NCBI GenBank assembly: GCA_011365025.1
Contig: RDOF01000005.1
Location: 72,882 to 136,881 of the forward strand
Direction: 5' to 3'
Length of the DNA: 64,000 bases
Source: Candidatus Thorarchaeota archaeon
Lineage (GTDB): Archaea; Asgardarchaeota; Thorarchaeia; Thorarchaeales; Thorarchaeaceae
Below the pieces are notes generated by a model that had not been told where the DNA came from, ran no database searches, and saw only the letters and a program-made list of their open reading frames with translations. The first letter of the stretch is position 1; the number at the start of each line of letters is the position of its first letter. Shown here piece by piece: positions 3,916 through 24,600 of this stretch. The translations under genes and the position numbers were made by a program.

Positions 3916-5715
3916 ATGAATGTCATGGTTTTTCTTGTGATTTCGTTGATTGTTCATTGTCTGCCGATTCCCTTTACACGGGATATGCTTGATCCCGGAA
4001 ACCTACTAAGGTGGATACCACTACGGTTAGTATGGGGAACAGTAGCATGGGCATTCATTACGATACTTCTAATGCAGACATTGCCCTGGGCAATACTTAC
4101 TCTTGTTATGAGCTTTGGATTGCTCTTGATTGTAAACAGCGGAGTCCGGTTTGATAGAATCGAGAATATCGGAGAGGGCCTTCGAGTGCCACTGGTTTGT
4201 ACGGGTCTTCTGATTCTCATTCTAATGCCGGTGTTCTCTTCAGTAATTGCTTGGACATCGGATGTTTCCAATGCTCAGTTCTTTAATGAAAGAATCCAGG
4301 AAACTGATGTCCCGTTGTTCAACTCGTCAATTCCTGACGAAATGGTAAGACTGGTCACTGAGGAGTACGCAGTGTATGTTGCTAGACAGCACATAGGACC
4401 CTTCGGATCCGATGTTGTGGTGTCAGCGGCACATATAACCACCAATTCAACAGGGCATCTGAAGTGGGTGTGTACAATTACGTCAACGAACGTATTGGCT
4501 CAGAACTATGTACTTGGATTCATTGTTGTTGATGCAAGCAATCCACAGGCCGAAGACCCACAAATCATCACGGGTACAACCATACCTGTAGGAGAAGGCC
4601 TCTTCTGGGACAAGGACATTCGCTTTGGCAACTATCTGAACGATATGACCTCCGCTTACGAGTATGCGTATCCTACATGGGACCCAGCTGGCAATATGGT
4701 GTACATCCAAACCAGAACCCCCTTGGGTTTTGATTTTGTAGAACGCGCTACTGGTCCGATAGTATACTCGGAGAACGGATCCATCACCGTATATGACTCC
4801 ATTGAAGACACTCCTTCTTGGATTACTCAGACGTACTCAGAGGAGTGGCTAGAGAGAGAGGTGTCTCGTTGGGGGGGCTATCGACGCGGTGAAACCTTTG
4901 ACCTCTTTTCAGGTGGATTCCTCTGGTTGGTTCCCCCCTCAAATGACCGCTTGGAAATCACAGAGGATACAAGATACATTGTGAATCCGGATACTATGAC
5001 CGTGGAGGCATTTATTGCTGTACATCCAGTGACCAACTCTCGAGCTCTGGCCGGAGTGTTTCGCGCAACTCAAGACACGGTGTACTACCACGACCTGAGT
5101 AGCTATGGATACGTAAGCGGAGATGCAGCGGCGGCTAATGTCGTAAGTCAGCTACCCCCACCCGCAAATGGATTCTACTACGGTGCAATGCCGCTCCTAT
5201 ATCCTGTTAACGTTGGTGGTGGGCAAATCAAGTGGACATGGTATGCGCCCATCTATTGGGCTGACGGCTATTACGACGATGACTATGAGGAATTCTATCT
5301 TTCAGATATGCGTCTTCATGCCCTTGCGATGGTTGATGCCTCAAACATTGACAAGTTCTATATCAGGATGGTCTACGACCAGGGTTCTGGGACGACCATA
5401 ACAGGAGGCGAACTTGTCTATGCTGCACGTGTTGGATTTGTGGAGAGCTTTGGTGGAACCGTTGAGCCAGAGCCTACTGGAACCTTTGAGTTGACTGCGG
5501 ATGTGGTCAATAAGACCTCCTACATCTACGGAGGCGACGAGTACTTCGTTTTCGGAACCAACAACGAAACCTATCCATACATCACAGCCATGTACGAATG
5601 GGTCAATGAAACTGATTGGATGACCATTCTGAACCTTGGTGTGGGACACAACTTCACTGCTACAATCGAACAGGTTGGCGAGCAGTACAGAATCATTGCC
5701 ATTGATAAGAACTAA
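3916..5715 (+). CDS. Membrane protein with large extracytoplasmic domain, unknown function
   Basis: 599 residues; ATG 3916 is preceded by gagg 7-8 nt upstream. About four hydrophobic segments lie in the first 120 residues (near 1-20, 33-75 as a pair, and 88-115). They are followed by a long soluble domain of about 480 residues rich in Tyr, Trp, Asp and N-glycosylation-type NxS/T sites. No catalytic motif is recognised. The soluble part contains aromatic strings such as GFYYGAMPLLYPVNV. It most likely faces outside the cell. It follows the leuBCD-like genes on the same strand but shows no functional link, and a hairpin follows its stop. Confidence 0.7.
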   Translation: MNVMVFLVISLIVHCLPIPFTRDMLDPGNLLRWIPLRLVWGTVAWAFITILLMQTLPWAILTLVMSFGLLLIVNSGVRFDRIENIGEGLRVPLVCTGLLILILMPVFSSVIAWTSDVSNAQFFNERIQETDVPLFNSSIPDEMVRLVTEEYAVYVARQHIGPFGSDVVVSAAHITTNSTGHLKWVCTITSTNVLAQNYVLGFIVVDASNPQAEDPQIITGTTIPVGEGLFWDKDIRFGNYLNDMTSAYEYAYPTWDPAGNMVYIQTRTPLGFDFVERATGPIVYSENGSITVYDSIEDTPSWITQTYSEEWLEREVSRWGGYRRGETFDLFSGGFLWLVPPSNDRLEITEDTRYIVNPDTMTVEAFIAVHPVTNSRALAGVFRATQDTVYYHDLSSYGYVSGDAAAANVVSQLPPPANGFYYGAMPLLYPVNVGGGQIKWTWYAPIYWADGYYDDDYEEFYLSDMRLHALAMVDASNIDKFYIRMVYDQGSGTTITGGELVYAARVGFVESFGGTVEPEPTGTFELTADVVNKTSYIYGGDEYFVFGTNNETYPYITAMYEWVNETDWMTILNLGVGHNFTATIEQVGEQYRIIAIDKN

Positions 5716-5989: not shown

Positions 5990-6589
5990 TCATCCACCCG
6001 AACTCATTTTGCTTTTCATCGCTGCATACGTTTCCTTGATTGCAGACCACACCCTCTTCCTTCTGGACAGAACTGCAGTGGTATGGATTGGACACTTATC
6101 TCCCAGCGGACACGCATCTTCAAATCCTCCATATTCGTGCAATACATCCTTGAGCGTGTGATTGAGTAGTTCGTCCCTAAAACCCGTCATAAGATCCTGA
6201 GTTATTATCGTCCAATCTGTGTTCTTGAAACGGGGCTGTGCCATGGTTCCAGAAATCGCATTGAATATTTTCTCCGCCGCCTCTGGGGAATCTTCCGTAA
6301 GACCTACAACAATAGAGTGTCCATCAGGAGTTGTTTTGGCAAAACGCATCTCAGTGTTCCCCATTTTTATCGACTGTAGTGACAAATCCGATTGGAGACT
6401 CATTGGTATTGTTTCTATGGCCGAGAGAAATCCTGATAGAAGCTCTGGATTCTGGAAAGCGGCTTTACAAAAGGTGCCAAAGCACTTGCTATAGATGGGT
6501 AGCCCGGCTTGTGTGTAAATAAGGAGATAGTCCAGTATTGGCAGAAGGTCATCCTCCTCATGATGCTTTATGGATACAGACAGGCGCAC
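5990..6589 (-). CDS. Longin/roadblock-like domain protein
   Basis: 199 residues, apparently with a GTG start. Residues about 17-100 look like a longin/profilin-type fold of the sort that accompanies small GTPases: LLIYTQAGLPIYSK at the first hairpin, then a helix with LLSGFLSAIETI and later strands ending HSIVVGL. The C-terminal half is helical and contains CPLGDKCPIH (about 166-175), a possible metal site. It lacks a signal peptide and is probably cytosolic. It is the last gene of a long minus-strand run containing the Arf-like GTPase and the acyl-CoA genes, so a role as GTPase partner or sensor is inferred. Family assignment is by pattern only. Confidence 0.6.
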   Translation of the reverse strand: MRLSVSIKHHEEDDLLPILDYLLIYTQAGLPIYSKCFGTFCKAAFQNPELLSGFLSAIETIPMSLQSDLSLQSIKMGNTEMRFAKTTPDGHSIVVGLTEDSPEAAEKIFNAISGTMAQPRFKNTDWTIITQDLMTGFRDELLNHTLKDVLHEYGGFEDACPLGDKCPIHTTAVLSRRKRVWSAIKETYAAMKSKMSSGG

Positions 6590-6761: not shown

Positions 6762-7934
6762 TCAAGCCGAATCTTCGAACTCCCTAAACACTTCCCTTTG
6801 AATAAGGAATCGCAAGATTTCCGCGGTTCCGCCTCCAATTGTCATGAGACGTGCATCTCTAAGGAACCTTTCAACTGGATAATCCGTAGTATAGCCTGCG
6901 CCTCCCAATACTTGAAGCGCATCGTTTGTTATTTGAATAGCAGCCTCGGTTGTATAGAGCTTCGCAATTGACGCCTCTTTGGTAATGTTCTGCCCACGGT
7001 CGTACATTCTTGCAGCCGTCAGTGTCAAAGCACGACCAGCTTCAAGTTTCATCGCCATATCTGCGATTTTGAAGCTTACACCCTCAAACGCCTTGATGGG
7101 TCGCCCAAACTGGTGACGCTCTGTTGCATATTTTACGGCAATCTCATAGGGTGTTCGGGCGTAGCCAATTGCCTCTCCGGCAATGGCCGTTCGCTCGGAA
7201 TCCAGCTCATCCATTAGAATATGAAATCCCTGTCCGGGTTCTCCAAGAAGCATATCTTCAGGAACACGCACATCATCCAGCTTGAGCCAGGAAACCCTAG
7301 CCGACTTCATGCCCAGAAGGTCATGGTCCTGAACAACAGTGAATCCCTCACTCTTTGTATCAACTATGAAGGCACTCATCCCCTCCTTGGATTTCACAGT
7401 GGGGTTAGTTATAGCAAATGCACACATGTAATCAGCAACGCTGCCGTTGGTGATGAATCGCTTCTCACCTCTCAGAACCCATTCATCCCCATCCTTCACC
7501 GCTTGGGTCTTCATTCCGGCAGTGTCGGAACCCACATCGGGCTCGGTGATGCCAATGCACCCAATCTTTTCTCCCTTAATGATAGGAGTAAGGTAATTTC
7601 TCTTCTGTTCGGCAGTGCCGAATTTCGTAAGCGGCATTCCGTAAAGCGTCGTAGAAGCCATTCGAGCCATATCCAAGCCGCCATTGACAGCAGAGATTTC
7701 TTCAGCTACTATGATTTCATAGGACAGACCTCTCTGAGAACCTCCTACGGATTTCTCATGGTGTACTCCCATGTAGCCTTTCTCACCCAGTTTGCGAATT
7801 AGTTCTCGGGGATAGGGCCCCTTGTCGATTTCGTCAGCAATGGGTGCAATCTCCTTTTGGCAGAAAGCACGAACTTCCGATCGGAATTTCAACTCGTCAT
7901 CTGTCCATAGTGCAGTGCTTAGGAGGTCCTTCAT
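6762..7934 (-). CDS. Acyl-CoA dehydrogenase
   Basis: 390 residues, full length for the family. It has the FAD/substrate motifs GITEPDVGSD (128-137) and the GEKRFITNGS strand, plus the C-terminal QVLGGAGYT region. It removes two hydrogens from an acyl-CoA at C2-C3, passing electrons to an electron-transfer flavoprotein in the cytosol. The catalytic base common to most members (the Glu of YEGT) is replaced by Gly368 in IGGGTAEI, while Glu247 in LDSERTAIAG aligns with the base of isovaleryl-CoA dehydrogenase. This points to the branched/long-chain geometry. It follows the DUF35 gene on the same strand and is co-directional with the thiolase-like gene, consistent with an acyl-CoA pathway. Confidence 0.95.
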   Translation of the reverse strand: MKDLLSTALWTDDELKFRSEVRAFCQKEIAPIADEIDKGPYPRELIRKLGEKGYMGVHHEKSVGGSQRGLSYEIIVAEEISAVNGGLDMARMASTTLYGMPLTKFGTAEQKRNYLTPIIKGEKIGCIGITEPDVGSDTAGMKTQAVKDGDEWVLRGEKRFITNGSVADYMCAFAITNPTVKSKEGMSAFIVDTKSEGFTVVQDHDLLGMKSARVSWLKLDDVRVPEDMLLGEPGQGFHILMDELDSERTAIAGEAIGYARTPYEIAVKYATERHQFGRPIKAFEGVSFKIADMAMKLEAGRALTLTAARMYDRGQNITKEASIAKLYTTEAAIQITNDALQVLGGAGYTTDYPVERFLRDARLMTIGGGTAEILRFLIQREVFREFEDSA

Positions 7935-8012: not shown

Positions 8013-8330
8013 CTACATCCTGAGCAAGAAACGACCTTCTGAATCTTGCTGAATCTCAACTTCCTTGCCAATCCCAATACTGCTAATATCCTTCTTGTCT
8101 GCAATACCCAAGATTCTTGCGCCCTGATCCAGTTCTACAAGTGCTAGCAAAACTGGGGGCTCAAATCCTGAAGGAGGCATCTCCAATATAGTGTAGCTTA
8201 GAACAACTCCGCGAGCAGCAAGTTTGACAGGACTTGAATCACCTGCACTGATGCCGCAATATGGACAAGTATCGCGAGGCGGAATAACAGTTCGTTCACA
8301 TATCCTACAGCGTGAAGCCTGTATACTCAA
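8013..8330 (-). CDS. DUF35 OB-fold / zinc-ribbon protein (acyl-CoA-associated)
   Basis: 105 residues starting at TTG 8330; tgggat lies just upstream and no in-frame ATG exists near the start. The N-terminus has a rubredoxin-type ribbon with two CxxC pairs (CRIC and CPYC, about residues 8-25) separated by 11 residues. An OB-fold follows (GVVLSYTILEMPP; VLLALVELDQGARILG). DUF35 proteins bridge or channel acyl-CoA substrates in complexes with thiolase-superfamily enzymes. The expected partner is the thiolase-like gene at 11327-12490 on the same strand, with a GTPase cassette between them. This separation is unusual. Confidence 0.9.
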   Translation of the reverse strand: MSIQASRCRICERTVIPPRDTCPYCGISAGDSSPVKLAARGVVLSYTILEMPPSGFEPPVLLALVELDQGARILGIADKKDISSIGIGKEVEIQQDSEGRFLLRM

Positions 8331-8383: not shown

Positions 8384-8725
8384 CTACTTCGGTGTCTTTG
8401 TCTTCAAAGTGCTCAGAACAGGTTTGATGTGCTTCTTGAGGAAAGCTCTGAACTTGGGATCATCTGTGAGGTATATGGTGCTTCTGTTCGTGAGGTTTTC
8501 AATACCCCCGTCAACTTCGATGGCCGCACCCAAATCAACCAAGTCTGTGTGGAAAACTCTGTGGATAGCATGCGGAGAGAAGCCTTCCTTTCTGTAGACT
8601 GGAAGTATCTGTGCTTTGGTTCCACTTCCCCCCAATTTAAGCAGAGACAAAAGCATTAGCCAGTGGTGCCAGGCGATTGTATAGTTCTCAAGAAAGTTCA
8701 TTACTTCTTCTATTGTTTTGACCAA
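8384..8725 (-). CDS. Small winged-helix-like protein in GTPase cassette
   Basis: About 113 residues. The chosen start is TTG 8725 because gggaaggaagg lies directly upstream of it, between it and the stop of the preceding gene (8745). A longer frame from 8875 would overlap that gene by 131 bp. Residues about 20-95 have a winged-helix profile: LMLLSLLKLGGSGTKAQI as helices 1-2, SPHAIHRVFHTDLVDLGAAI as the recognition region, and STIYLTDDPKFRAFL as the wing and last helix. It may bind DNA or act as a protein-interaction module next to the coiled-coil and GTPase genes. No named family is recognised. Confidence 0.65.
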   Translation of the reverse strand: MVKTIEEVMNFLENYTIAWHHWLMLLSLLKLGGSGTKAQILPVYRKEGFSPHAIHRVFHTDLVDLGAAIEVDGGIENLTNRSTIYLTDDPKFRAFLKKHIKPVLSTLKTKTPK

Positions 8726-8744
8726 GCTGCCTTCCTTCCCATTT

Positions 8745-9098
8745 TCAGTGTAGAGCGCCGCGGTAGCCAAGTTCGGAAAGCCTAGCTGCGGTTTCTCTGA
8801 GGCTTTCTGAAACTTTTGCGGCTTCTTGAATTCTTGACATGAGCTCTCTACGGAACTCAGTTGCTTCGATTTCACCCTTCTCCAAGCTCATCGTGAGATT
8901 CTCCCTTTCAACTGAAAGAGACTCTCGTCTTTCTACAAGCTTATTATATTCAGAAAGAAGTTCTTTTATCGACCCAAAATTACTCGGCGTTATTGTGTCA
9001 TCTGCGGACAGCTCTGATGCATATTTCCTTGCGTCCGGTGGCTTTGAAACTACCGTAGGTCTAGGTTTCTTTCGTCGCCAGTTATCAAACAATCCCAT
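8745..9098 (-). CDS. Coiled-coil protein in GTPase cassette
   Basis: 117 residues. A basic, Pro-containing N-terminus (GLFDNWRRKKPRP) is followed by a long predicted coiled coil from about residue 42 to 108, rich in Glu, Lys, Arg and Leu in heptad spacing (IKELLSEYNKLVERRESL onward). No enzyme motif is present. The ATG (9096-9098) lies one base after the stop of the Arf-like GTPase, so the two are almost certainly co-translated. An adaptor or effector for the GTPase is a reasonable inference. It could also tether the GTPase to a membrane or DNA, but nothing in the sequence decides this. Confidence 0.75.
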   Translation of the reverse strand: MGLFDNWRRKKPRPTVVSKPPDARKYASELSADDTITPSNFGSIKELLSEYNKLVERRESLSVERENLTMSLEKGEIEATEFRRELMSRIQEAAKVSESLRETAARLSELGYRGALH

Positions 9099-9099
9099 T

Positions 9100-9984
9100 T
9101 CATTCAGGCTCCCTTATTTCCCCAACAATCTTGAATTCCAGTTCCTCAAAGGCTAACGCTCTGATTAGTTCCAACCAACGTTCCCTGAATTCTAGTTTAT
9201 TGGCTTGCATGCCGTAAGCAGGAACTCCTAGTTTTTCGCCAACTTCCTCAGGAGATAGTGCACCTGGTAAGTCCTGTTTGTTGGCAACTGCTATTGCCCG
9301 AGCATAAGGCAATTCAGTTTTCAGAACTGGATACGCTACACGCTTAGTCCATTCCATGTTTGCCTCTGTGGAATCTGTAACAATCACAACAAGACTGCCT
9401 GACCGGATAATCTTGCCCCACTCCTGGACAAATCGGTCTTGTCCGCCCAAGTCAAAAACACTGAAAACATAGGGATCAAAATCGGCCTTCAGTAATGCCT
9501 TATCCCCGAAAAAAGTCGGTACGTACTCCTGCGGAGGCCCTCGTGAGGGGAGCGTAGCCAATTCTAAGAGCGTGGTCTTGCCAGTACCACCATGTCCCGC
9601 CAAACACAATTTAACAGGAATCGTTCCCACGATCTTTCGAAAACCAATTTCAAATGGAGAAAAGTCTGCAGTGTTCCACTCATCACCTTCAAGTATGTTT
9701 TCAAAGACCATCATGAAGTTAGAAACAAGACTCATCATTGCTTCGTTTACTTTCTGAAGAGACGATTGCCGATCAATCGTCACAATGAATTGGGTATCAT
9801 GGGAATTCATGTAGACAAATCGATAGCGATTAATCTCCATGCTATCGATTTTCCACTCTTGCATCTTCCGCGCTGAGCTAGTAACAAGCGTCATTACTGA
9901 ATCTGTATCAAGGTCTTTGTTCTCTACTATGACGTCCTTGAACAGAGTCTGGCCGTCTTTGAAGATGTGAATCTCTCGAATCAT
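9100..9984 (-). CDS. Longin-like domain fused to Arf-like small GTPase
   Basis: 294 residues from ATG 9984, chosen over an earlier in-frame ATG (10014) that would overlap the upstream gene; tgtggtg precedes the ATG. Residues 1-105 form a longin/profilin-type domain (MIREIHIFKDGQTLF, then a YRFVYMNSHDTQFIVTIDR hairpin and a long helix). Residues about 124-285 are a Ras-superfamily GTPase: P-loop GHGGTGKTT (130-138), switch II DLGGQD (178-183) and base-recognition NKQDL (235-239). DxGGQ and NKQD are Arf/Rag-like rather than Ras-like. There is no C-terminal prenylation cysteine. It probably acts as a cytosolic GTP switch with the adjacent longin/winged-helix and coiled-coil proteins. This fusion is one of the strongest Asgard-type signals here. 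Confidence 0.9.
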   Translation of the reverse strand: MIREIHIFKDGQTLFKDVIVENKDLDTDSVMTLVTSSARKMQEWKIDSMEINRYRFVYMNSHDTQFIVTIDRQSSLQKVNEAMMSLVSNFMMVFENILEGDEWNTADFSPFEIGFRKIVGTIPVKLCLAGHGGTGKTTLLELATLPSRGPPQEYVPTFFGDKALLKADFDPYVFSVFDLGGQDRFVQEWGKIIRSGSLVVIVTDSTEANMEWTKRVAYPVLKTELPYARAIAVANKQDLPGALSPEEVGEKLGVPAYGMQANKLEFRERWLELIRALAFEELEFKIVGEIREPE

Positions 9985-9997
9985 TGCACCACAAATC

Positions 9998-11161
9998 CTA
10001 TTCCAATTCTGCAATGAAGGTCGTCTGGCTCGGATGAGATTGCTTCAGGATTTCCAAGTAGTGCATAGCTTGTTGGCTAGCAATTGATTCAGAGTTGTAA
10101 AGATCCACCGTTTTCCGGATCATCCATTCGGGGTATACTGTGATGACTTCTGGATTGCATTTGAGTAGTACAAGTTCCCGTTTGTCCCCATCCGCAATCC
10201 TTGTGACGATGTTGGCCCTTTCAAGAGCTGATAGTATCTTCTTGGTTTTTGCAGGTGACAAATCAATCATTTCAGGAAGCTGCTTCATCTCAACAGGACC
10301 TCTCCTGAGCACCTGAATCAAATCGTAAGCATCAAAATCGAGCAGGTATTTTCCAATTTCCTTGGCATCGGACCAGACAGTTTTGAACAAGTCAGTATTC
10401 AGTCTTGCCACATATCCACGGTGATATTCCCTCGCCAATTCAAAATAGTCCTCCGTTGCACCTTTTGGCAAGCCGCTCTCTCGGACCGCCTGAACAGTAT
10501 CATGTGAAACGGTACGTAGGACAAACAATGCTCTTGTCAAGTAAATCACTTCAGAGGCGAGTCCCTCAACCCAGCCTGTTGCAATTATGCCCATCTTTAC
10601 TAGTGGGCGGAGGACAATGTCAACATCTATCTTCTTACCAACCGCCTCGAAGATGATCTGCTCAAGGTCAGCAGACTGCACAGTTCCATTCTTCAGCAAT
10701 GCCTGTATGACTGCTCTCCGAACAGGGTCAGTGAGGACCGATGTTTGCTGTTGTTCCGCAGTCATCTGCGTATACCTAGAGATTTGTTTGTAGAGGGGCG
10801 TGACCATTTTCTTGTATGCTTCATCTTCTGCATTGAGGAATATTTGTGTGGCTATCTCAGGCAAGGCATCTTTGTAGACAGCAGGGTCTTCCTCTGGATG
10901 CAGAACAAGGAATACCATTGATGGCAGGCCCTTGAGGTGCATGTTCAGTCCGCCATAATAGACAGCAAGTTTGAAGTCATCAAATGCCAAGGAGCTAAAG
11001 CCTGGCTTCTGCGACTCCTCAGTTTCCCCAAGTGTCGCTATTCCATAGACCCTCATCGAAGTCGTAGGATCCAATCCTATCTTGAGCTTGGCTGGCGTCT
11101 TGGTAGTTACTACTGGCCCAAGCTCATCATCCCACTTTAGCACTGCTAGGCCTTCGGGCAT
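9998..11161 (-). CDS. Longin-like plus winged-helix regulator
   Basis: About 387 residues from ATG 11161 (MPEGLAVLKWDDELGPVV); a longer frame reaches 11254 but its extra residues are not domain-like. Residues 1-110 look like a longin/roadblock domain opening with the LKWDDELGPVV hairpin seen in archaeal regulators. Residues about 130-215 and 290-345 look like winged-helix units, e.g. DPVRRAVIQALLKNGTVQ and LSPAKTKKILSALERANIV. It lies 13 bp upstream of the Arf-like GTPase and in the same operon. A role as GTPase partner with nucleic-acid- or protein-binding winged helices, comparable in layout to Rag/Ragulator or Mgl systems, is inferred. Confidence 0.75.
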   Translation of the reverse strand: MPEGLAVLKWDDELGPVVTTKTPAKLKIGLDPTTSMRVYGIATLGETEESQKPGFSSLAFDDFKLAVYYGGLNMHLKGLPSMVFLVLHPEEDPAVYKDALPEIATQIFLNAEDEAYKKMVTPLYKQISRYTQMTAEQQQTSVLTDPVRRAVIQALLKNGTVQSADLEQIIFEAVGKKIDVDIVLRPLVKMGIIATGWVEGLASEVIYLTRALFVLRTVSHDTVQAVRESGLPKGATEDYFELAREYHRGYVARLNTDLFKTVWSDAKEIGKYLLDFDAYDLIQVLRRGPVEMKQLPEMIDLSPAKTKKILSALERANIVTRIADGDKRELVLLKCNPEVITVYPEWMIRKTVDLYNSESIASQQAMHYLEILKQSHPSQTTFIAELE

Positions 11162-11326
11162 TTCAAGATTTTCTCCGTTCGAGCTCCAGAAACAGGAAAG
11201 ATGGCAGTCTTTTTGGTCCCTTGAAAATGACCTAACCTTGTGATTCCGGTACATCCAGTCTTGAGCCTGTTCCGATGGGTAGAATCTTGGATTTTCTAAT
11301 AAGGCAATCTTGCATGAACAATACGG

Positions 11327-12490
11327 CTAGATTCCAAAGAGTCCAACACAGATATTGTTGCCAAAGCCACCGATATTCTGTGTGAGCGCATATCTTGGGG
11401 AATCAACCTGCAAGTCCTTGGGAGCTTTTCCGATGAGTTGGTTGTATATGTCATGAATCTGGGCCACACCGGAGGCCCCAGTCGGATGACCTCGCGCCTT
11501 CAAACCTCCGGTAGTGTTTACCGGGATGTCGCCAAACAGCTCAGTCCGACCCTCTCTTACAAGTTCAATTGAATTTCCTCTACTCGCAAGACCGATGTCT
11601 TCCATGTTTATCAATTCCAGAATTGAGAAAGCATCATGGAGTTCACAGACATCAATATCCCTTGGTGAGAGATTTGCCATTCGGAAAGCCCTCTCTGCGG
11701 CAGTAACAGTTGCACCGAATGATGTCATGGACAATCTATGCTGAACAGCATGGTAGTCTGTACCATGACCGAAACCGAGAACTCTGACAGCCAGGTCTTT
11801 AGCGCCGAGGTTTCTAACCCATTTTTCTGATGCGAGTACAATGGACGCGGCCCCATCACTGGTTGGACAACAATCGAGCAGTGTCAGTGGTTCAGCTACA
11901 ATTCGGGCCTTGCCCACTTCCTCAATGGTGATTTCCTTTTGGAAGTGAGCTAGAGGATTCTTTGCACCATTTCGATGCGCCTTGACCGGGACCAATGATA
12001 GGTCATCACGAGTCAGACCGTAATCATGCATGTACCTTCGAGCTATCATAGCCGCCAATGCTGTTGGAGTGGCACCATATCGAGTCTCATTCTCATATGA
12101 CATCATTTTTGAGAGTATCTTCGAAGCGGTTCCGCGATTCACCTCTGACATCTTTTCCACTCCAATCACCAGGACGAGATCAGAGTACCCAGAGGCTATC
12201 ATCGTATATGCAACTTCGACCGCACTAGAACCTGAGGAGGGCCCGGTTTCCACACGTGTTGCCCCAGCAGGGACAATTCCCAATCTGTCTGCTAGAAGAG
12301 TAGAAAGATGACCCATGTTTACAAACTCATCAGGATTCTGGGATCCTACGACAAGATGATCGAATCTTTGGTTAAAGCAGTGTGATTGCTGCATAGCCTT
12401 AGAAGACGCTTGTTCAGCCAGTTCTATCAGCGACTTGTCGAGAGTACCAAAAGCGGTCATTCCAGCACCGATGACATACACTGGCCCCAT
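11327..12490 (-). CDS. Thiolase-superfamily protein lacking the nucleophilic cysteine
   Basis: 387 residues from ATG 12490, supported by gaggtg 8 nt upstream; an ATG 15 nt earlier contains that SD. It is a full-length SCP2/archaeal-type thiolase fold: an AGMTAFG start, a GYSDLVLVIGVEKM strand, ELHDAFSI, NTTGGLKARGHPTGASG and a C-terminal NIGGFGNNICVG. At the nucleophile position, where active thiolases have CAS(G/S)G, the sequence is VETGPSSGSSAVE. The Cys is replaced by Pro; the codons (ccc tcc tca) were checked directly. It therefore probably does not do Claisen thiolysis. Cys-less DUF35-partnered homologues such as actinobacterial Ltp2 are retro-aldolases. It is the first gene of the minus-strand run ending at 5990. 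Confidence 0.9.
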   Translation of the reverse strand: MGPVYVIGAGMTAFGTLDKSLIELAEQASSKAMQQSHCFNQRFDHLVVGSQNPDEFVNMGHLSTLLADRLGIVPAGATRVETGPSSGSSAVEVAYTMIASGYSDLVLVIGVEKMSEVNRGTASKILSKMMSYENETRYGATPTALAAMIARRYMHDYGLTRDDLSLVPVKAHRNGAKNPLAHFQKEITIEEVGKARIVAEPLTLLDCCPTSDGAASIVLASEKWVRNLGAKDLAVRVLGFGHGTDYHAVQHRLSMTSFGATVTAAERAFRMANLSPRDIDVCELHDAFSILELINMEDIGLASRGNSIELVREGRTELFGDIPVNTTGGLKARGHPTGASGVAQIHDIYNQLIGKAPKDLQVDSPRYALTQNIGGFGNNICVGLFGI

Positions 12491-12600
12491 AAGCTTACAC
12501 CTCATCCGATGAGAACTAAGAAATCATCCGGAGTCATCATCGAACCGGTCATTATCAGTCAATCTGGAAGTACTCGATATCGTATTTAGTAGTTCTGATG

Positions 12601-15600
12601 TCATTGATACCAATCAGTCAGGTCGTCATCATCTTCAAACTCGGGCGGTTCTTTTTCCGCATCATGATCCTTTGGTTCTTCTTCGATCTTTCTCATTTCT
12701 TTAGCCTTAGGCTCCTCAATTTCAGATTCCTCGATTGTGGAATCTTCTGCATTATCTTCCAAATCAAGTTCGTCCATTTCATCTTCAGCAATGCTATCTT
12801 CATTCTTTTCATCAACCTTGAAATCCTCAGTTTCCTCAACTGATGGTTGCTGCTCTTCATCTACCTCATGGAGGTCTTCCGCTACTTCATCTTCGATTGT
12901 AGCTTCCCCGTGGTCGAGCCATTCCAAGTCCCCTTCAAAGTCGATTTTGTCAATTTCAGGCGCCTCGCGGGTGGGCTCCTCTATCTCATCCTCCAGATCG
13001 AGCGCCCCCACTTCCTCATCGGCACTTCTATCATCTTTTTCATCAACTTCATGGACGTCGATTTCTTTGACTGTCGGTTGCTCCTCTTCTTCTGCCTCAT
13101 CGAGGCCTTCCACTTCTTCATCTTCGAAGGCGGCTTTTCCAAGGTCAAGCCGCTTCAATTCCTCGTCGAAATCAATATTCTTAGCAGCAGTTGCTTCGAG
13201 TGGTGCTTTCGCCTCCTTTGCCGCCGCCAGCGAATCTATGATTGTCTTGAGTTCGGCCTCTGTGAGTTGCGTCAATTCAGTAAGCTCGTCTATGGACAGG
13301 TTCTCAAGCCAGCGCTCTTTGAAGTGATCGATGACGAAAGATGGAAGTATCCGGATTAGTCTCTTCTTCCTAGCAACTTCATCAAGTTCCTCTGCTTCTT
13401 CAATCTCGTCAAACTTCATTTTCAGTGCATTAACAATCTCAACATAGGAATCTTCGACATAAATGGCATCAGTCTTCTGAGCGCCTTCTATTGATTTGAG
13501 AAGATCCTCTACCTCTTCAGGGCTCAATTTGGCCAACTGCTCTATGTCAGGAATGTCCAATTCTCTCAGTTCCTCTTCAAAGAACATCGATTTGACGGAA
13601 GATGGCAGTTTCTCGACCCAGTCGTCCTTGGTGAGAGGTACCTTTACTCCGCTCGTTTCCTTGACTCGTCGAACTTCTTCCAGCATTAGCGCTAGTGCTT
13701 CTTCTGATGCAGCCTCTATGTCTGTGTAGGCCTCTATATCCAACTCCTCGAATTCGCCAGTGCTCTCAGTCTCAGGAATCTCTCTTACAATTACTTCTTC
13801 CTCTTCTTCTTCCGGTTCGGGAAGCTCGAATTCCTCAAGGGCTTCCACCATCTCCATATCGGGTTCAATCACCTGAATCCGCTCCAGATCGGCTTCAGCA
13901 CTGAAAGATAGGATTTCGTCCAAAGTCAGCCCCAATTCAAGAAGTCCTGGTTCGAGTAAATCAAGGAAACTCTGCTCGGCTGTCTTAACATCGATTTCCT
14001 CTATCTTCTCTTCCTTCTCCATCGCATCTAGAATCGCGTTGATTTGCTTGACTTCGGGGGGAACTGCAACATAGTATCTTCTTCGTGCAAGTACCGCAAT
14101 TACCGCAACAATAGCAAAGACTCCACCACTGATTCCAGCTATCATCATGGGAGTGAGCCGAGGCAATGGCGGAGGTACAAATTCCACTGTGATTTGGTTA
14201 CCAGCTAATGATAGCTGCGTGATTCCGAATTGATTTCCAGACACTGCTTCTATGTAGAATGTGTATACGCCTTCCACAACCTTCGTGATGTTCGCAAACC
14301 AGAATCCACCAGTTGCATTATAGGACATGGAAATCTGACTGTCCAAATCCCAGAGAGTAACAACTCCATCTGTTACTGGCGTTCCATCGTATTCGTAGGA
14401 AAGCGTGGCACTTATGATGATGAATTCCTCAACGATAGGAGTGGTAGAGCTTGCAGATGTTGTCAGAACTTGAATTCTGTCCCAGATTATAGTCACATCG
14501 CTTGCGCTAATGATGAAGAAGTCAATACCTCCAAGTGACGCTGACAGTATCGTGAATGTTTCATCACCCACAATATCACTTGAATGAGAAGCTCGCCAGA
14601 AACCGTCCACATAGGTCATTGTAGTAGGCCCTGTAACCAGAGCAGATATTCCTGATGTGATGTCAATGCCCGCGTTTTCTAGTCTCACCGACCACAGTGA
14701 GAATCCAGTTGAGCTTACATCTATTCTCGAATCAGCAGCAGAGGATTGATAGAACTCCAATCGATCCCAGTAAACAGTCCGAGCATGTCCATACATGCTG
14801 AAGCTTGTAATTCCATATGAAGAAGCAAAGCAAGTTGTGAGAGTATTATAGACTACAGTTTGGTATGCAAGTCGTGTGGCATTGGCCTCCCAAAGACCAT
14901 CAGCAACCTGATAGAAATCTGCATATGACAGACTAAAGTTCCCTGATATAATCGGTGCATCATCAAAGTCATAACGTAGGAACATCTGCAAAATCACGTA
15001 TTCACCAGGATCGAGATAAGTTGCATTAGCAAAGATGGAAACAACCTCGACCCGATCCCAGATACACCAGACTATATCGTTGGAAGAAATGACACTGATT
15101 CCATGAATCCCTCCAATCGCAGATGACGCAGTATAATACTGCCTTGTTACTGTTGAATAGTGGAATAGGGTATTGTTGAGAAATATAGTGCCGTCGAAGG
15201 GTGTAGAATCGTAACTGTAGATGGCAGAAACACAGATTCCAGTAGCATTCTCATTTAGATTGATTCGCTGGTCAGTTGGACTAGTGATGCTGACAATGAG
15301 GGAGTCCCAGATTATACTTTGATCAGGGGCATTCAGAACCCATACCGTGATTCCAAAACGCGAATCTGTTGCTCCCGCAATTGTGTAGCCTACTTTCCTT
15401 GAAGAGGCTCGGCTTTCTTGGTAGGACCATCTACTGCTTCCAGCATCCCAGCTTAGCAACTTCGTTCCGTTCAGGAATGCAATCAGGTTGCTTTGAATCT
15501 CAACTCCACCATATTGGTATCTCGCATTCCACCAGACAATTCCATCTGTGTTGATATTGATGCGGGGGTCATCAACTCCGGACAGGTAGAACTCAATTCT

Positions 15601-18600
15601 ATCAGTGATGAATGTGTCAGTACGACTGGTCGTATAGAACAGGTCAGATGCAACTGGACCGGCTCCGGCAATGACAATCTTGAATGTATAGGTATTCAAC
15701 CTGACAGAGGCAGACGAACCAATATTTGCTATTGTGAAATCACCAAGAATGTCGACATCTCCAGTCCATGTTCCAGAGAAGTCGTGTATCACCCAGACAT
15801 CAGTTTCATTGGCAAGAGGTGATACGAGTGAGCCATAATATACTACCGAGCCTGTTGCCTGCAGGTTATTGGTATTCACGTTGCCATGATCGTCAGATAG
15901 AGAGGGTGCGGATGAATAGTCTAGTCGAGTTTCGATATCCCAATTAGATTCAAAGAAGTCGGTATCAGTAACCGCCAGCGAGTCCACAACGTATTGTCGT
16001 GTGTCGACATTCACCATATCAAAGTGGGCCCAATCAATCTTGATGGACCAGGTAACGTTAAGCTGATATCCCAACTCAAAATATGTACTTCCAGCCAGGC
16101 TGATGTACTGGGAACCTACTATGATGGAGAATGTTTGAGTGGCAAGAACGAATCGCACGCGCCAGATCTCAATGGTTCTTGAATTATCCAAAAGCGCGAG
16201 TTCCAAATAGTTAATGTCCGAGGCGCCATCATAATCAACGACGGAGGATCTAATGTAATAGTATCTCAGCCTGGAGAACATCGAGTCGGTATCGTCTGGG
16301 TTGAGCAGAATTGGAGCTCCGTTATTGAATGGCGCGAAGTTCAGGGGGGTTGTCCATGTCACTTCAGCTGTATTGCATGTGAAAGCTGTAATTGCAAATG
16401 CAGTTTCAGTAGATACAGTTTGAACTGTGTACTGATAAGTGAGAGCCGCGTTGTTATCTATGAAGAAGGAAGCATTTAGGTTGCTAAAGGACTTCCAATA
16501 TGTTCCATTCCGGCTCACATCCATGACGTAGGTAGTACAGATTGAGTCGTCGTAGTCAAAGGTAACCGAGAGTGTAAAGCTCACATCAGTGAAGTCAATG
16601 ACTGATGGGGAGTCTGGGGTTATAGTAATGAGAAGCCTGTCCCAAATCACATCCTGAGAAAGGCCCATAGTAGTGACCACTGAAATGCCATAGGTTGATT
16701 CTGCGGCCCCTGACGCATTTACGTAGTAACTCCAAATGCCAACGGATGATTGAGTTGCATCGTAGTAGAACCAGCCGTTTGCACCATCCCAGGTCATTGC
16801 AGAATTATCAAGGAACAGACTATCGCCAAAGCCTAGCTGATGATTATCGTACTCGAGTTCAGCCGTAACCATTATTCGAGCCATATCACCTATGCTAAGT
16901 CTGGAATCGTCGACTGTAGTGGTGAGGACTCTGATTCTGTCCCAGATGATTGTCTGGGATGCGCCATTCTGATTGACTACACTGATACCATGGGTATTCC
17001 CTGACACGACTGCAGAGTCATAGGTTTCATGAGTCACTGAAGTTTGAAAGCGATCAGCGGACCAGACTCCGTCTACGGCAGTGTGGGAAAAGAGAACAGA
17101 GTTGACTATGACCAATCCGTTAGTGACATTCGTATCGTCATACTCGTACTGAAGTGTGATGAGGACTGTTATTGTACTGCCAACGTCATCTCGATCATCT
17201 GAGGCTGTGATGGACCGGACAACAACCCTGTCCCATATCACCAACTGTGACTGACCATTCTGATTCACACTTGTGATTCCATGATTATTTCCTGAACAGG
17301 TCACAGAATTGTAGAGATTGGCTCTGACGGTGGGTTCTGAAACTGTGATTCGCCAGACTCCAGCTCCACGGTACGTGGCACTTGTGCCATTGACCATCAC
17401 TGTACCAGTGGCAACATCGGTGCTATCAAACTCATACTCAATGGTGACATCAATTGCCACTGCAGCATTCACATTCACTCGATTATCCAGGACAGCATAA
17501 GATCTCACTATTATCCGGTCCCAGATTACAGTCTGTGACTGACCATTCTGATCCACACTTGAGATTCCCTCAGCGTTACCAGAGCAAGCAACAGTGTCAA
17601 AGGTGACTCCTTGTACAGAACTTCTGAACTCGGTGATTCTCCAGACTCCGGCACCTTGATGAATTGCAGAAACTTCATTGATGGCCACGACGCCATTAGT
17701 GACCGGTGAGTCATCGTACTCGTATTGCAGAGTCACATCAATATTGACAGAATCATCAACATTCACACGACTGTCTGTAACAGTATAGTATCTAACCGTT
17801 ATCTGGTCCCAGATTACCGTCTGTTGCTGTGAATTCGTATTGACACTTGAAATACCCATCGAGTTTCCTGAGCAGACAATAGTATCATAGGTAATTGACT
17901 GGACTGTGCTTTCTGAAACAGTGATTTGCCAGATGCCTCCTGCGATGTGACTAGCGGAAATTGACTGGATTACTACTACGCCATCATCAAGGTCTGACCC
18001 ATCATACTCATACAACAAAGTGACGTTGATGATTACTAAGTCATTCAAGTTCACCCTTCTGTCAATCACTGTGTATGACTGCACGATGATTTGATCCCAG
18101 ACGACTTCGATTGACTGGCCATTCTGATCGACGCTTGTGATTCCGTTTGCATTTCCTGATGCAGTGACACTGCTGTAATTGACAGATTGAACGCTACTCC
18201 TGGTCTGAGAAATGCGCCAGACACCGCTTCCTTGGTGAGAGGCAGGTATTGTGTTGATACTTGCAATTCCATCGATTACCGGAGAGCCATCATATCCGTA
18301 GTTTAGAAGAACGTCTATCGCAACGTTATCGCCAACATTGACTCTGTCATCTAATACTGAGTAGGAAGCTACTACAATCTCATCCCAGATGACTAACTGC
18401 GATTGACTATTCTGATTAATGGAGGAGATACCATGGGCATTTCCAAAACATTCAACTGTGTCAAAGGTCACTCCTTGTGCCGATCCTCGAGTCTGGGCAA
18501 TTCTCCATACTCCGCCACCTTGATGAGCTGCAGTAACACCATTAATTGTCACGGTTCCACTGGTTACTGAGAAACTATCATACTCGAAGACCAGAGTGAC

Positions 18601-21600
18601 ATCGATGTTAACAGAGGCACCAACATTTACATGGTCGTCAACCACAGCGTAGCTGCTGACCAATACGCGATCCCAAATAACAGTCTGAGTTTGAGCGTTC
18701 TGATTTACTAGTGTTATATTGTGTGCATTTCCACTGCAACTGACAAAGTCGTAGATAACGCTCAACACAGTACTTCGAGATTCACTGATTCGCCAGAGTC
18801 CTGAACCTTGATAGGTCGCTGACAATGAATTGATGAGGACGGATCCACCTACAACATAGGAATCGTCAAACTCAAACTCGAGCAGAACATCGATATCTAC
18901 TGAATCAGTAACGTTGACTCGGTTATCGGCAACTGAGTAGTAGCGGACAACAATGAGATCCCAAATGATGGTTGCATTTGATGCCGTCTGACTCCACCCT
19001 GTCAAACCATAGCCAGACTCTGAAGCGGAGAGGACTGAATATCCAACGCTTGAAACAAACATGACTGATTCTGAGAAATACCATCGACCGTTTGTTGCAT
19101 CCCAGAGGAGGGATTTGGAACCATTCAGTGAACTCGTCAGACCAGTTGTAATCTCAACATTGTCATAATCATAGCGCGCATTCCACCAGACAGTTCCAGT
19201 GTCATTCACATTGATGCGGCCGTCCTCTGCCCCTGATAGGTAGAATTCAATCTGGTCCGTGATGAAAGTATCAGTGGCACTTGCCGTGTAGAAGAGATCA
19301 GACCCTCCTGAGCCAGCTCCATCAACCACTATCTTTACTGTGTAGGTATTCAAACGTACTGAAGCAGATGAAGCAATGCCAGAAATGGAGAACGCACCAA
19401 TCCCATTGACATCACCAGACCAAGTGCTGGACTCATCATGGAGCACCCATATGTCGGTTTCATTTGCCAAAGGATTGAGGAGTGAGCCATAGTAGACTAC
19501 GGTTCCAGTCATTACAAGATCATTTGTATTGATATCACCACGATTATCGGACAAGTAAGGCGAAACTGAGTAGGCGAGGCGGGTTTCCACATCCCAATTG
19601 GATTCGTACCAATTCTCATCTGACTCAGCATCTTCATCGATAACGTACTGTCGGATATCGACGTTGGAGAGGGCAGCGTGGTCCCACTCGATTTTGATTA
19701 CCCATATTATGTCGATATCATTCCCGTTCTTGACATAGGAAGACCAGGCTGCAAGAGTAATATTGTCAGCCCCAAACTGTACCGAGAATGCATTCGTGTC
19801 TTCAGTGAACCGAACCCGCCAAACCTCTATTGAACGAGTATTGTCCCACAAGCTTAGCTCAATGTAAACAATGTTAGCATAGCCCTGAGCATCTGAAACA
19901 TTGGAGGTGATTACATAGTACCTGAGCCTGGCGTACATGAAGTCCGTATTATCAGGATTTGTTAGAGTAGGAGGTGCGTCATTCACAGGTGCCGCAGTTC
20001 CACCCCCCCAAGTCACAGTTTCGGTGTTTGTTGTGAACTCTGTAATTCCATAGGTGGATTCACTGACCACAAGGGATGTTGTGTAATTGTAAGTGACGGC
20101 AATATTGCTCTCAATGAAGGATGTGATGTTTGCATTGGTAAAGGTGTTCCAGTATGTCGCATTTCTTGCTATCCTGATTGTGTAGGTTGCGCATTCGACT
20201 GAATCATATTGAAATGTTACAGTCACGGTGAAGTTTACTTGGACAGAGTTTTCGACACTGTCCATATCAGCAACGATATTGATACTTAGCTGGTCCCATA
20301 TCACAAGTTGGCTCTGACCATTTTGATTGACGTTCGTTATTCCAGGAGTATTTCCTGAGCAAGCAACACTATCGAAGGTTACTCCTTGAACAGAACTCCT
20401 TGACTGGGTGATTCTCCAGACTCCCGAACCAATGTCTGATGCAACTACACCGTTAATCGTCACTGAGCCATCGGTGACCGCTGAGTCATCATATTCGTAT
20501 TCGATCGTTACATCGATGTTCACGCTGTCATCAAGGTTAACGCGGTTGTCAGCAACGCTGTAGCCTCGAACTGCTATCTGATCCCAAATTACACTCACAC
20601 TTTGGGAGTTAAGGTTCAGGGCAGAGATACCATAAGTCGATTCGAGTGAGGAATTGACATAAAACATCCAGATTCCAACTGTTGGCTTCTGTCTGTTTAA
20701 TTCGAACCTTGCGTCAACCGCATCCCAGGTCATTGCAGCTCCATTCAACGTGACGGAATCGCCAGCACCCAACAGGGTACCATCATACTCCAATCGAAGT
20801 GTGACTCGAATCTCACAGAAAGTACCTACATCTATTCGTGTATCGTCTGTTTGTGTCGTTAATACTTGGATTCTATCCCAAACTATGGTCTGTGCCTGAC
20901 TATTCTGATTGACGTCAGTTATTCCATGTTCATTATCTGATACAACTACCGAATTATAGATTTCAGCGCTGACTGAACCACTCACTCTATTCGTGGACCA
21001 CTTCCCAAGAGAACCAGTGTAAGTGAAGGAAACAAAGTTGACTGTAACAAACCCATCTACTACGTCAGAATTATCATATTCATACTCCAACTCCACGGTA
21101 ACTGTAATTGTGTCACCCACATTGTCTCTTGGGTCAGAAACCTCATAGGTTCGTACTGTGATCTGATCCCATATGACAAGCTGGCTCTGACCATTCTGAT
21201 TCACACTTGAAATTCCTTCAGTGTTTCCAGAACAGGCCACCGTGTTGTACGTGACTCCTTGAACAGAGCTTCTGGACTGAGTGATTCTCCAAACTCCTGC
21301 CCCCTGAGGAGTGGCAGGATTTCCATTGATAGTGACAGTTCCATCAACGACGGGTGAGTCATCGTACTCGTATTCTATTGTAACGTTAATGTTCACACTA
21401 TCATCGAGATTCACCCTATTATCAGCAACTGAGTAGGACCGTACGGTTACTTGGTCCCAAATGATATCTTGTGACTGTGCGTTCTGGCTAACTTCACTGA
21501 TTCCGAATGTGTTGCCTGAACACTGAACATTATTGTACGTCACCTTTTGTACAGATGATTTGGTTTGAGAAATTCGCCAGACTCCTGCACCTTGATGGGT

Positions 21601-24600
21601 TGCCGAGATTCCATTGATAGTCACTACACCATTGGTGACTGTAGAATCATCATACTCATACTGTAATGCGACATCGATTGCCACAGCAGTATTAATTCCA
21701 ACTCGTGGATCAGCAACAGAGTATGAACGGACGACTATTTGGTCCCAGATAACCACTGCCGACTTTCCATTCTGATCCACGTTGGATATCAGGTAGGTGT
21801 TTCCAGAACACGCAACAGTGGTGTAAGTCACATTCTGGACACTGGATTTAGTGTCAGTGATACGCCATATTCCACCACCTTGAGGCGTGGCTGGGATTGA
21901 ATTGATAGTAACTGCTCCATTAAGGACTGGCGTGTCATCATATTCGTACTCAAGCAGGACATCGATGTTCACTGCGGCATTGATGTCAACTCGACTATCA
22001 ATAACGGTGTAGGAACGAACTGTGATTCTGTCCCAAACGACCTGAGCAGATTGACCATTCTGATTCACACTTGAAATTCCTTCAGAGTTTCCAGAACAAG
22101 CCACTGTGTTGTATGTGACTAGCTGAACTGCTGGTTTCGAATCTGTTATCCTCCAAACTCCAGCACCCTGAGGAGTTGCCAAGACTCCATTGATACTTAC
22201 TACACCATTAGTGACACGGGTGTCATCGTACTCATACTCGATTGTGACATCAATGTTCACATTATCATTAATGTTTGTACGCCCATCAGAAACTGAATAT
22301 GACCTTACAGTAATCTGATCCCAGATGACCAGTTGAGATTGAGAGTTCTGGTTGACATCAGTAATTCCGTGAGTGTTTCCGGAACAGACAACTGAATTAT
22401 ATATCACTCCTTGGACTGTGCTTCTCGAAGGTGAGATTTGCCAGACGCCATTCCCTTGGTGAGCCGCCAGAACAAGATTGATTGTAACCACGCCGTTAAC
22501 AACAGCGGTATTGTCATACGCATATTCCAGCGTAACATTCACGGTGACAATATCATTGAGGTTGACTCGATTATCTAGGACAGAGTAAGAGAGTACGGTT
22601 ATTTGATCCCAGATAACGGATTGCGATTTTCCATTCTGATTAACAGCAGTGATTCCATAGTTGTTGTCAGTTGTCGCCACGAAGCTGTAAGTCACGCGTT
22701 GAACCGTGGCTTTTGCATCTGTGAACCTCCAAACTCCTGAGCCCTGATGCGTAGCTAGGGTTCCGTTAACCGTAATAGTACCGGCTGTCACGGCAGCACT
22801 GTCATAGGCATAGATTAGAGTCACATCAATAGCAACAGACGTGCCCACGTCAACTCGGTCATCTAGGACAGAGTAGGATACGACCGTAATCTGGTCCCAT
22901 ATCTGATTGAGGCTCTGTCCATTCTGACTTTCTGCAGTAATGCCATGAGTACCCCCACTGTAGACTAGTGTGTTGTAGGTGTTCATCTGTACAAGGGGCT
23001 CAGTATCACTAAAGTCCCAGACCCCATTTAAGCCACTGTACGTGGCAGAAATCCCATTGATTGTGGCTGTCCCATCGACTACAAAGCTGTCATCATAGTC
23101 ATAGTAAAGAGTGACATGCAGATTGGCTGTGGCACCGACGTTGATTCTTGGGTCATCAGTGGAGTAAGACTGGACTTGTACCCTGTCGGAGATGTAATTG
23201 GCAGTTTCACTAGAGCTGAAGAGATTGCTTCCGCCAGCTCCTGAACCTTCCTCAACCGCCTTGAATGTGAAAGCATCCAGTCCCACGACATCATCTGCAT
23301 AGACGGTGGCTGAGAAGGTGCCTCCAACATCTTCGTAGTTTGTCGCCTTCCATGGACCAGAGTGAGTGCCATACTCAGCTGCACTAATCCAGACGTCGAT
23401 TTCGGAGGCGGAGGGATGCAGGGCACTTCCCAAGTAGGTGATGGTTCCTGATGCAGTCATTGAACCATCGAGGTCTCCACGATTGGCAGTTCCTGAGCCA
23501 TCGTCTAGGGTTGGACCCGTACTCATATCAAGACGAGTCTCGACATCCCAATCGACTTCAAAATACTCCTGACTCGAAGAAGGATTGCTATCGAACACCT
23601 CGCACATTGCGTCAGTGTTGCTGGCATCAGGGTGGTTCCAGTTAATGGTGATATAGAAGGTTACATTGAGCTGAGTTCCGCTCTTGGAAAAGGTTGATGA
23701 TGCACCATCCAAGACCATGTAGTCAGAGGGGTCAGACTGCTCATTGAAGACATCAGTGTCCTCGTCGAAACGAACTGTCCAATATTCAGTTAGTCGATTG
23801 TCAGAAGTGAGTGTAAGTTCCAGATAATCGATATCAGCATAGCCATCATCATCCGTGAAATAAACTGTAATCTGGTATTGTTTATACTGTCCATAGAGAT
23901 AGCTAGTGTCATCAATATTTGACACAAAGGGCTGCGCTGCACTTACTGGCACACTGTTGTTCCAAGTATGTAGTAAGGCACAGTCAATTTGCCAGGAAGA
24001 CTGCGTGGCGTCTCCGGTTTCATTGTCACCTCTAAACCGAATTGTAAACGTAGAACCAGTAAGCCACGTTCCCACACTGACATTCGTCCAAGAAGCCTCA
24101 TTGAGATCAAACAGGATATTGGTCCAGCTTGAACCAGCCCATACATCCACTCGGATTCCTTCATCATCCAGAGTACCAGAATAGATGCAAAGTTCCTCGA
24201 AGGAGTCTGCGAATTGCGCGGCCGTCCATTGAACTTCAAGGTCTAGTTCGTAGTTGTAGGTCAAGAGAGTCCAGGTGTGCAACGTGATTAAATCGACATT
24301 CCAAACATCCTGACTGGCATCAACGGATTCAGATGAGCCAAGGAAGCGGAGTGTGTATGTCGGTGAACCAAGTCCTGTTGCAGTGAAGTTCATCCAGCCC
24401 GTTGATGAGATTGTTCCTAGAGGCATCCAGCCGGAATTCCAATAGGATACGGTCAGGTTCTCTGATCCAGTGTGGGATCTTATGTAGATGCAGACTTCCT
24501 CATTGAGCTCGTCGAAGTCTGCTGAACTCCACTGATACTCGAAATTGACCTTATAGGGAGTGTTAACAAGGGAGTACGGCCACTGAATGACATTCCCAGA

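Follow-up and report, generated by a model that had tools for sequence, protein, structure and literature searches.

A longin/Arf GTPase cassette of Asgard archaea and its putative coupling to giant surface proteins

Introduction

For many of the eukaryote-like small GTPases encoded by Asgard genomes, as for the longin and roadblock proteins of these genomes, no partner has been assigned. Matching the GTPases to partners from genome layout is hard according to part of PMC10933270, which also gives longin-GTPase fusions as a known Asgard architecture, alongside roadblock-GTPase fusions, and places the GTPase genes of MK-D1 generally outside operons with roadblock or longin genes. Among other related systems, an extract of PMC13343842 describes the Streptomyces conservons (CvnA-D) as operons in which a membrane protein is encoded together with a roadblock-type protein and a Ras-like GTPase, and a section of PMC9646525 identifies Arg78 as the catalytic arginine in the longin lobe for NPRL2/NPRL3 of GATOR1/SEACIT. 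Here we analyze a 64,000-nucleotide stretch from a Candidatus Thorarchaeota archaeon (contig RDOF01000005.1, positions 72,882 to 136,881; hereafter the window), in which a minus-strand cassette encodes a longin/winged-helix protein (LwH), a longin-Arf GTPase, a coiled-coil protein (CC) and a small protein. Unlike the statement on MK-D1, the conserved operon names a partner for a GTPase, and layout together with natural fusions ties the partners to giant surface proteins. This suggests that the GTP switch is linked to the cell surface and not to fat metabolism.

The LwH-GTPase operon, the giants, and a linkage or fusion of longin and surface proteins in Asgard archaea were not described in any paper that our literature search returned, and the main text of PMC10307638 contains neither "longin" nor "NPRL2". 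A figure legend in PMC9834061 gives "NPRL2-like longin domain", "Arf-like GTPase" and "Gtr1/RagA GTPase" as eukaryotic signature protein classes enriched in Lokiarchaeum ossiferum; LwH proteins may therefore be on record already under the first of these classes (asCOG).

Results and discussion

The cassette comprises four tightly spaced genes, all on the minus strand: LwH (387 residues, 9998-11161), the GTPase (294 residues, 9100-9984), CC (117 residues with the N-terminus MGLFDNWRRKK, 8745-9098) and the small protein (wHs; 113 residues, 8384-8725, presumed TTG start), which owes its winged-helix label to a first-pass annotation of the window. The open reading frame (ORF) of LwH opens at 11254, and the start was set at 11161 because its relatives begin at MPEGLAV. 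The coordinates agree with that annotation in the gaps of 13, 1 and 19 bp and in the position of the four genes between those for a thiolase-domain protein (11327-12505, minus) and its DUF35/OB-fold partner (8013-8330, minus), with an acyl-CoA dehydrogenase gene (6762-7934) and a second longin-like gene (5990-6589) downstream on the same strand. The thiolase, DUF35 and dehydrogenase genes, all Thorarchaeota-specific neighbors of the cassette, had Pfam matches above the cut-offs, and the match of the second longin-like protein was below (Fuz_longin_1, 1.2e-4).

We searched 227 genomes of the phylum for LwH (E ≤ 1e-5) and found it in 133. For the 76 genomes outside Thorarchaeota whose best LwH place was listed, this place was inspected for giant genes on the same strand at a distance of up to 1 kb. 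A protein of at least 600 residues with hydropathy-predicted hydrophobic segments at the N-terminus and in the C-terminal half was counted as a complete giant. LwH was fused to a giant in five genomes (L080, L081, L082, L088 and L142), beside a complete giant in 38, beside a giant of at least 600 residues cut by the contig end in eight, and beside a short fragment at a contig end, itself containing a hydrophobic segment, in seven; 18 places had no giant. As a control, 206 other genes of 300-450 residues in the same loci were examined. Five of them adjoined a complete or cut giant, a number that fell to 1 of 206 when giants adjoining an LwH were left out. This control is compared with 46 (38 complete and 8 cut) of the 53 giant neighbors, because the seven contig-end fragments rest on a criterion that was not applied to the control genes. 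Where the two are fused, LwH is located on the C-terminal, cytoplasmic side after a single membrane span (for example, a span near residue 2170 followed by LwH at 2282-2637). One genome (G110) carries tandem fused giant-LwH genes of 2648 and 2669 residues (L080:2689-19096), with four such places spaced about 8 kb apart.

In the 70 pairs (69 loci), the giant preceded LwH 57 times and followed it 13 times, and the frames of 46 of the 57 upstream giants were separated from that of LwH by only -4 to +3 nt. Such coupled genes with the giant first, together with the Arf-type G domain of the GTPase, would also suit a biogenesis role, in which LwH and the GTPase act in the targeting, insertion or folding of the giants and the giant is a cargo rather than a receptor. 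SR-beta, an Arf-like GTPase, and the longin-type domain of SR-alpha act at the eukaryotic translocon and provide an analogy. This is the strongest rival explanation, but we consider it rather unlikely: in the five genomes above LwH forms one polypeptide with a giant, on its mature cytoplasmic side, which fits a lasting partner better, and the match of the GTPase to Pfam SRPRB (0.047) is below the cut-off.

The giants also share a cytoplasmic tail. A profile of the membrane span and the roughly 80 residues after it, the juxtamembrane (JM) segment, was built from 61 giants with Thorarchaeota left out, and it contains a motif like RIPxFVKK. Among the 341 ORFs of the window and the Thorarchaeota loci, 20 matched at E ≤ 6e-5, all of them large with the span near the C-terminal end, and the next match was at 0.03. 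One of the 20 (9.6e-8) is a 4528-residue ORF of the window (12601-26187, minus) upstream of the cassette, which was absent from the gene list of the first-pass annotation. It has an N-terminal hydrophobic segment, a repeat ectodomain, a C-terminal membrane span and an acidic cytoplasmic tail, and the family-defining stretch of span and JM segment is located at 13861-14163 (minus). Judged by its tail sequence, this ORF is part of the same system as the cassette. Across the 227 genomes, the JM profile matched 145: LwH and JM occurred together in 124, LwH only in 9, JM only in 21 and neither in 73. A Pfam scan of four giants gave Laminin_G_3 above the cut-off in one and DUF7738 just above the cut-off in that of the window, while CarboxypepD_reg, Big_1 and others remained below; these matches are consistent with surface adhesins, short of proof.

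The cassette was then compared among related loci. Scanning genome contigs with the GTPase alignment yielded 22 loci, by title 17 from Thorarchaeota, 2 from Lokiarchaeota, 2 from an "archaeon" and 1 weak bacterial match (L022) that was set aside. In the remaining 21, the order thiolase, LwH, GTPase, CC, wHs, DUF35 and acyl-CoA dehydrogenase is kept as far as the contigs extend, apart from one locus without DUF35 and dehydrogenase and giant-gene insertions in eight; given this order, the arrangement is more than chance, and the lack of a conserved gene order, which the first-pass annotation named as refuting its proposal, is not what Thorarchaeota show. The GTPase is followed by CC and wHs in 20 of 21 loci (the L006 contig stops at the GTPase), the thiolase precedes LwH in all 13 loci with a full LwH, and DUF35 and the dehydrogenase come next in 17 of the 18 loci that extend 300 bp beyond wHs. 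The exception is L003, where wHs is directly followed, at the expected place of DUF35, by an ORF (L003:13809-15578) that looks like the beginning of a giant surface protein. The second longin-like gene is less constant (10 of the 16 loci with room for it). Relatives of the cassette proteins with source names are mostly from Thorarchaeota.

In the loci with both genes, LwH and the GTPase are 2 to 210 bp apart in six and 2.8 to 7.4 kb apart in eight, and in all eight a giant gene fills the interval. LwH and the giant were duplicated as a unit in G183, giving the order LwH-giant-LwH-giant-GTPase. In a tree of LwH and GTPase, whose root is uncertain owing to a distant outgroup, L001 is the nearest neighbor of the window, and L002 and L003 join next in turn (local supports 1.0, 0.999 and 0.981); the compact loci are scattered among the expanded ones, which suggests that a giant between LwH and GTPase was lost or relocated in the line of the window. 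Expanded Thorarchaeota loci that extend further also carry coiled-coil genes of 186-residue and 465-residue kinds, as in L017 (10883-11443 and 11838-13235). The window locus lacks both kinds, and weak matches to the 465-residue protein occur in L060 and L061.

Outside Thorarchaeota, LwH and GTPase genes are adjacent on the same strand (gap of -4 to 261 bp) in L060-L070, L100 and L101. A CC match accompanies seven of these pairs in the neighbor survey, and that of L067 in a separate scan. The GTPase profile, paralogs included, matches 168 of the 227 genomes (E ≤ 1e-12, with at most 10 candidates scored per genome); in the non-Thorarchaeota loci it finds 25 genes within 1 kb of LwH (172.9 kb), versus 2 in the other 738.4 kb. 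The cassette picked out by the first-pass annotation, in which the longin-Arf GTPase is joined by LwH and CC, is thus conserved, with LwH-GTPase (often with CC) reaching far outside Thorarchaeota. We also count in favor of a surface-coupled module the paralogous LwH-GTPase pairs at L026:997-2954, L098:6781-8741 and L099:5833-7886 (G002, G187 and G193) and those of G071-G073 (L092:1934-4255, L093:3980-6265 and L094:5927-8259), in which an LwH-like gene of about 430 residues lies beside a longin-type GTPase gene. In G187 and G193 the pair is followed by a gene of 187-189 residues, possibly forming a parallel cassette, and a second GTPase gene lies near the pairs of G071-G073.

The same loci bear on the proposal of the first-pass annotation that the cassette, as a GTP switch, senses or controls acyl-CoA metabolism. 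The order in Thorarchaeota, with the thiolase always ahead of LwH and the DUF35 and dehydrogenase genes nearly always behind, speaks for it. However, the thiolase, DUF35 and acyl-CoA dehydrogenase profiles had no match in the non-Thorarchaeota loci shown, where LwH-GTPase persists, and we consider a general acyl-CoA function improbable. The acyl-CoA enzymes were accordingly dropped as the core of the system, and their presence in Thorarchaeota may reflect co-expression or a lineage-specific input.

We next evaluated the proteins themselves. The GTPase matches Pfam Arf (47.7 bits against a cut-off of 22.3, 1.6e-12), and the P-loop, DxxGQ and NKQD motifs of an Arf-type G domain are present, leaving the motifs for GTP binding and hydrolysis intact. 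Across 43 rows, K135, G180, N234, Q236 and D237 are invariant (numbering of a 293-residue row), and D177, Q181 and K235 are kept in at least 90%. The predicted structure has a longin-type strand/helix order ahead of the G domain, and the first Foldseek rows are GerdArfR1 (8oum). Arf proteins carry an amphipathic helix at the N-terminus, immediately ahead of the G domain, and no other domain; the model departs from this layout, and the protein is filed as a longin-Arf fusion only. CC and wHs gave nothing reliable in Pfam, and wHs had no NCBIfam match either. The hydrophobic moments of the CC N-terminus were computed without a null control, so that its amphipathic character, and with it a candidate membrane contact, is no more than a hint; a possible resemblance of CC to ESCRT-III was dropped.

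The AlphaFold model of LwH predicts a longin domain (approximately residues 1-133) and winged helices, the Pfam matches of which are below the cut-offs. Winged helices might indicate a membrane-tethered or released transcription factor under GTPase control, and the recognition helix of the second one is mildly basic in Thorarchaeota. We regard this as improbable: the first recognition helix has a median charge of 0 in Thorarchaeota and -1 elsewhere, the second reaches only +1 outside Thorarchaeota, and LwH is tethered to the giants, covalently in the five fusions. Winged helices, moreover, often bind proteins. Of the suggestion in the first-pass annotation that a GTP switch links acyl-CoA metabolism to transcription or membranes, the membrane branch is thus favored; the acyl-CoA link is unsupported as the general function, and so is a role in transcription.

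The first seven PDB rows of a Foldseek search with LwH are GATOR1/SEAC chains. LwH resembles NPRL2/NPRL3 in having a predicted longin N-lobe; for the C-lobe arrangement, the Foldseek alignment is nearly full-length but has a TM of 0.2-0.27 and an rmsd of 18-22. By HMMER, no GATOR1 chain was present among 47 PDB matches at E ≤ 10, and no NPRL family was among the best 25 of 101 Pfam families. In residues 1-133, no arginine was found among the invariant or 90% columns of 56 rows, the structural equivalent of Arg78 not having been mapped, and R37 is R, K or Q in the rows shown. Residue conservation thus lends no support to an arginine-finger GTPase-activating protein (GAP) role for LwH, and the idea was set aside.

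C9orf72-SMCR8 is described in part of PMC8213707 as an ARF GAP complex. It is built on longin domains and, like the proposed module, has a longin-type regulator acting on an Arf GTPase, but Pfam detects no DENN domain in LwH, and the likeness is one of description. The conservons, which likewise have a Ras-superfamily GTPase in an operon, are by analogy the nearest system in a possible mode of working. They differ in having a roadblock CvnB, a CvnC and a sensor histidine kinase-like CvnA, the place of which would here be taken by a giant surface protein, and the GTPase of the cassette is of the Arf type. Pfam scans of the four cassette proteins and of four giants gave no match to a kinase, a roadblock domain or DUF742.

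Gene linkage, fusion, the shared tail family, the predicted folds and the intact GTPase motifs together lead us to favor, with slightly more confidence than doubt, a longin/Arf GTPase module in Asgard archaea that is coupled to the cell surface and composed of the giant, LwH, GTPase and CC. The single-span giant would expose its long repeat ectodomain outside, and its conserved JM segment would anchor LwH at the inner membrane face, the two forming one polypeptide in some lineages. The LwH longin domain would engage the longin-Arf GTPase, probably through a longin-longin platform, and set or read its nucleotide state, with the winged helices serving as protein-interaction modules and CC helping to keep the complex membrane-bound. 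When the giant makes a contact or comes under load, the GTPase state may change, or the GTPase may change the anchoring of the giant. We infer the physical LwH-GTPase contact, the membrane role of CC, the output and the direction of control, in which LwH could be a guanine nucleotide exchange factor, a GAP or an effector.

Several points weigh against such a module. The LwH-GTPase contact is putative, and the giants were called by hydropathy only. Outside Thorarchaeota, the GTPase is within 6 kb of just 26 of 76 LwH genes, and 11 of the 18 giant-less places are the LwH-GTPase lineages L061-L069, L100 and L101; in four of the other seven (G111, G127, G140 and G152), a JM match lies directly upstream of LwH. 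The co-occurrence of LwH and JM (Fisher p ~8e-30) is uncorrected for kinship, and the 21 JM-only genomes have giants and no LwH match. The compact Thorarchaeota loci L010, L013, L015 and L018 have no giant within the locus, though the L018 genome has five JM matches, and the giant of the window lies beyond the thiolase and does not adjoin LwH.

A bolder version, in which the giants form an outside-in receptor without a described prokaryotic counterpart, adhesin-like and signaling through a directly attached NPRL2-like LwH adaptor to longin-Arf GTPases, with several copies of the system per genome, and the membrane-bound longin-GTPase pairing is part of the archaeal stock that later gave rise to eukaryotic longin regulators such as GATOR1, strikes us as rather unlikely. 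Giants of this class could plausibly account for the surface densities and cell contacts that a portion of PMC9834061 describes in cultured Lokiarchaea. With a small set of named proteins, the role of Asgard GTPases before eukaryotic membrane traffic becomes testable.

Neighboring genes

A gene for a 599-residue protein without a Pfam match (3916-5715, plus) is divergent to the cassette in 13 of the 21 related loci, and aconitase-family leuC/leuD-like genes lie beyond it. The plus strand of the window also encodes a full-length catalase on this archaeal contig (39287-40819; Pfam 3.2e-189), a 1663-residue histidine kinase-like protein with many PAS domains (54457-59448), and a 788-residue NosD/beta-helix protein with a threonine run ahead of its C-terminal hydrophobic segment (36781-39147).
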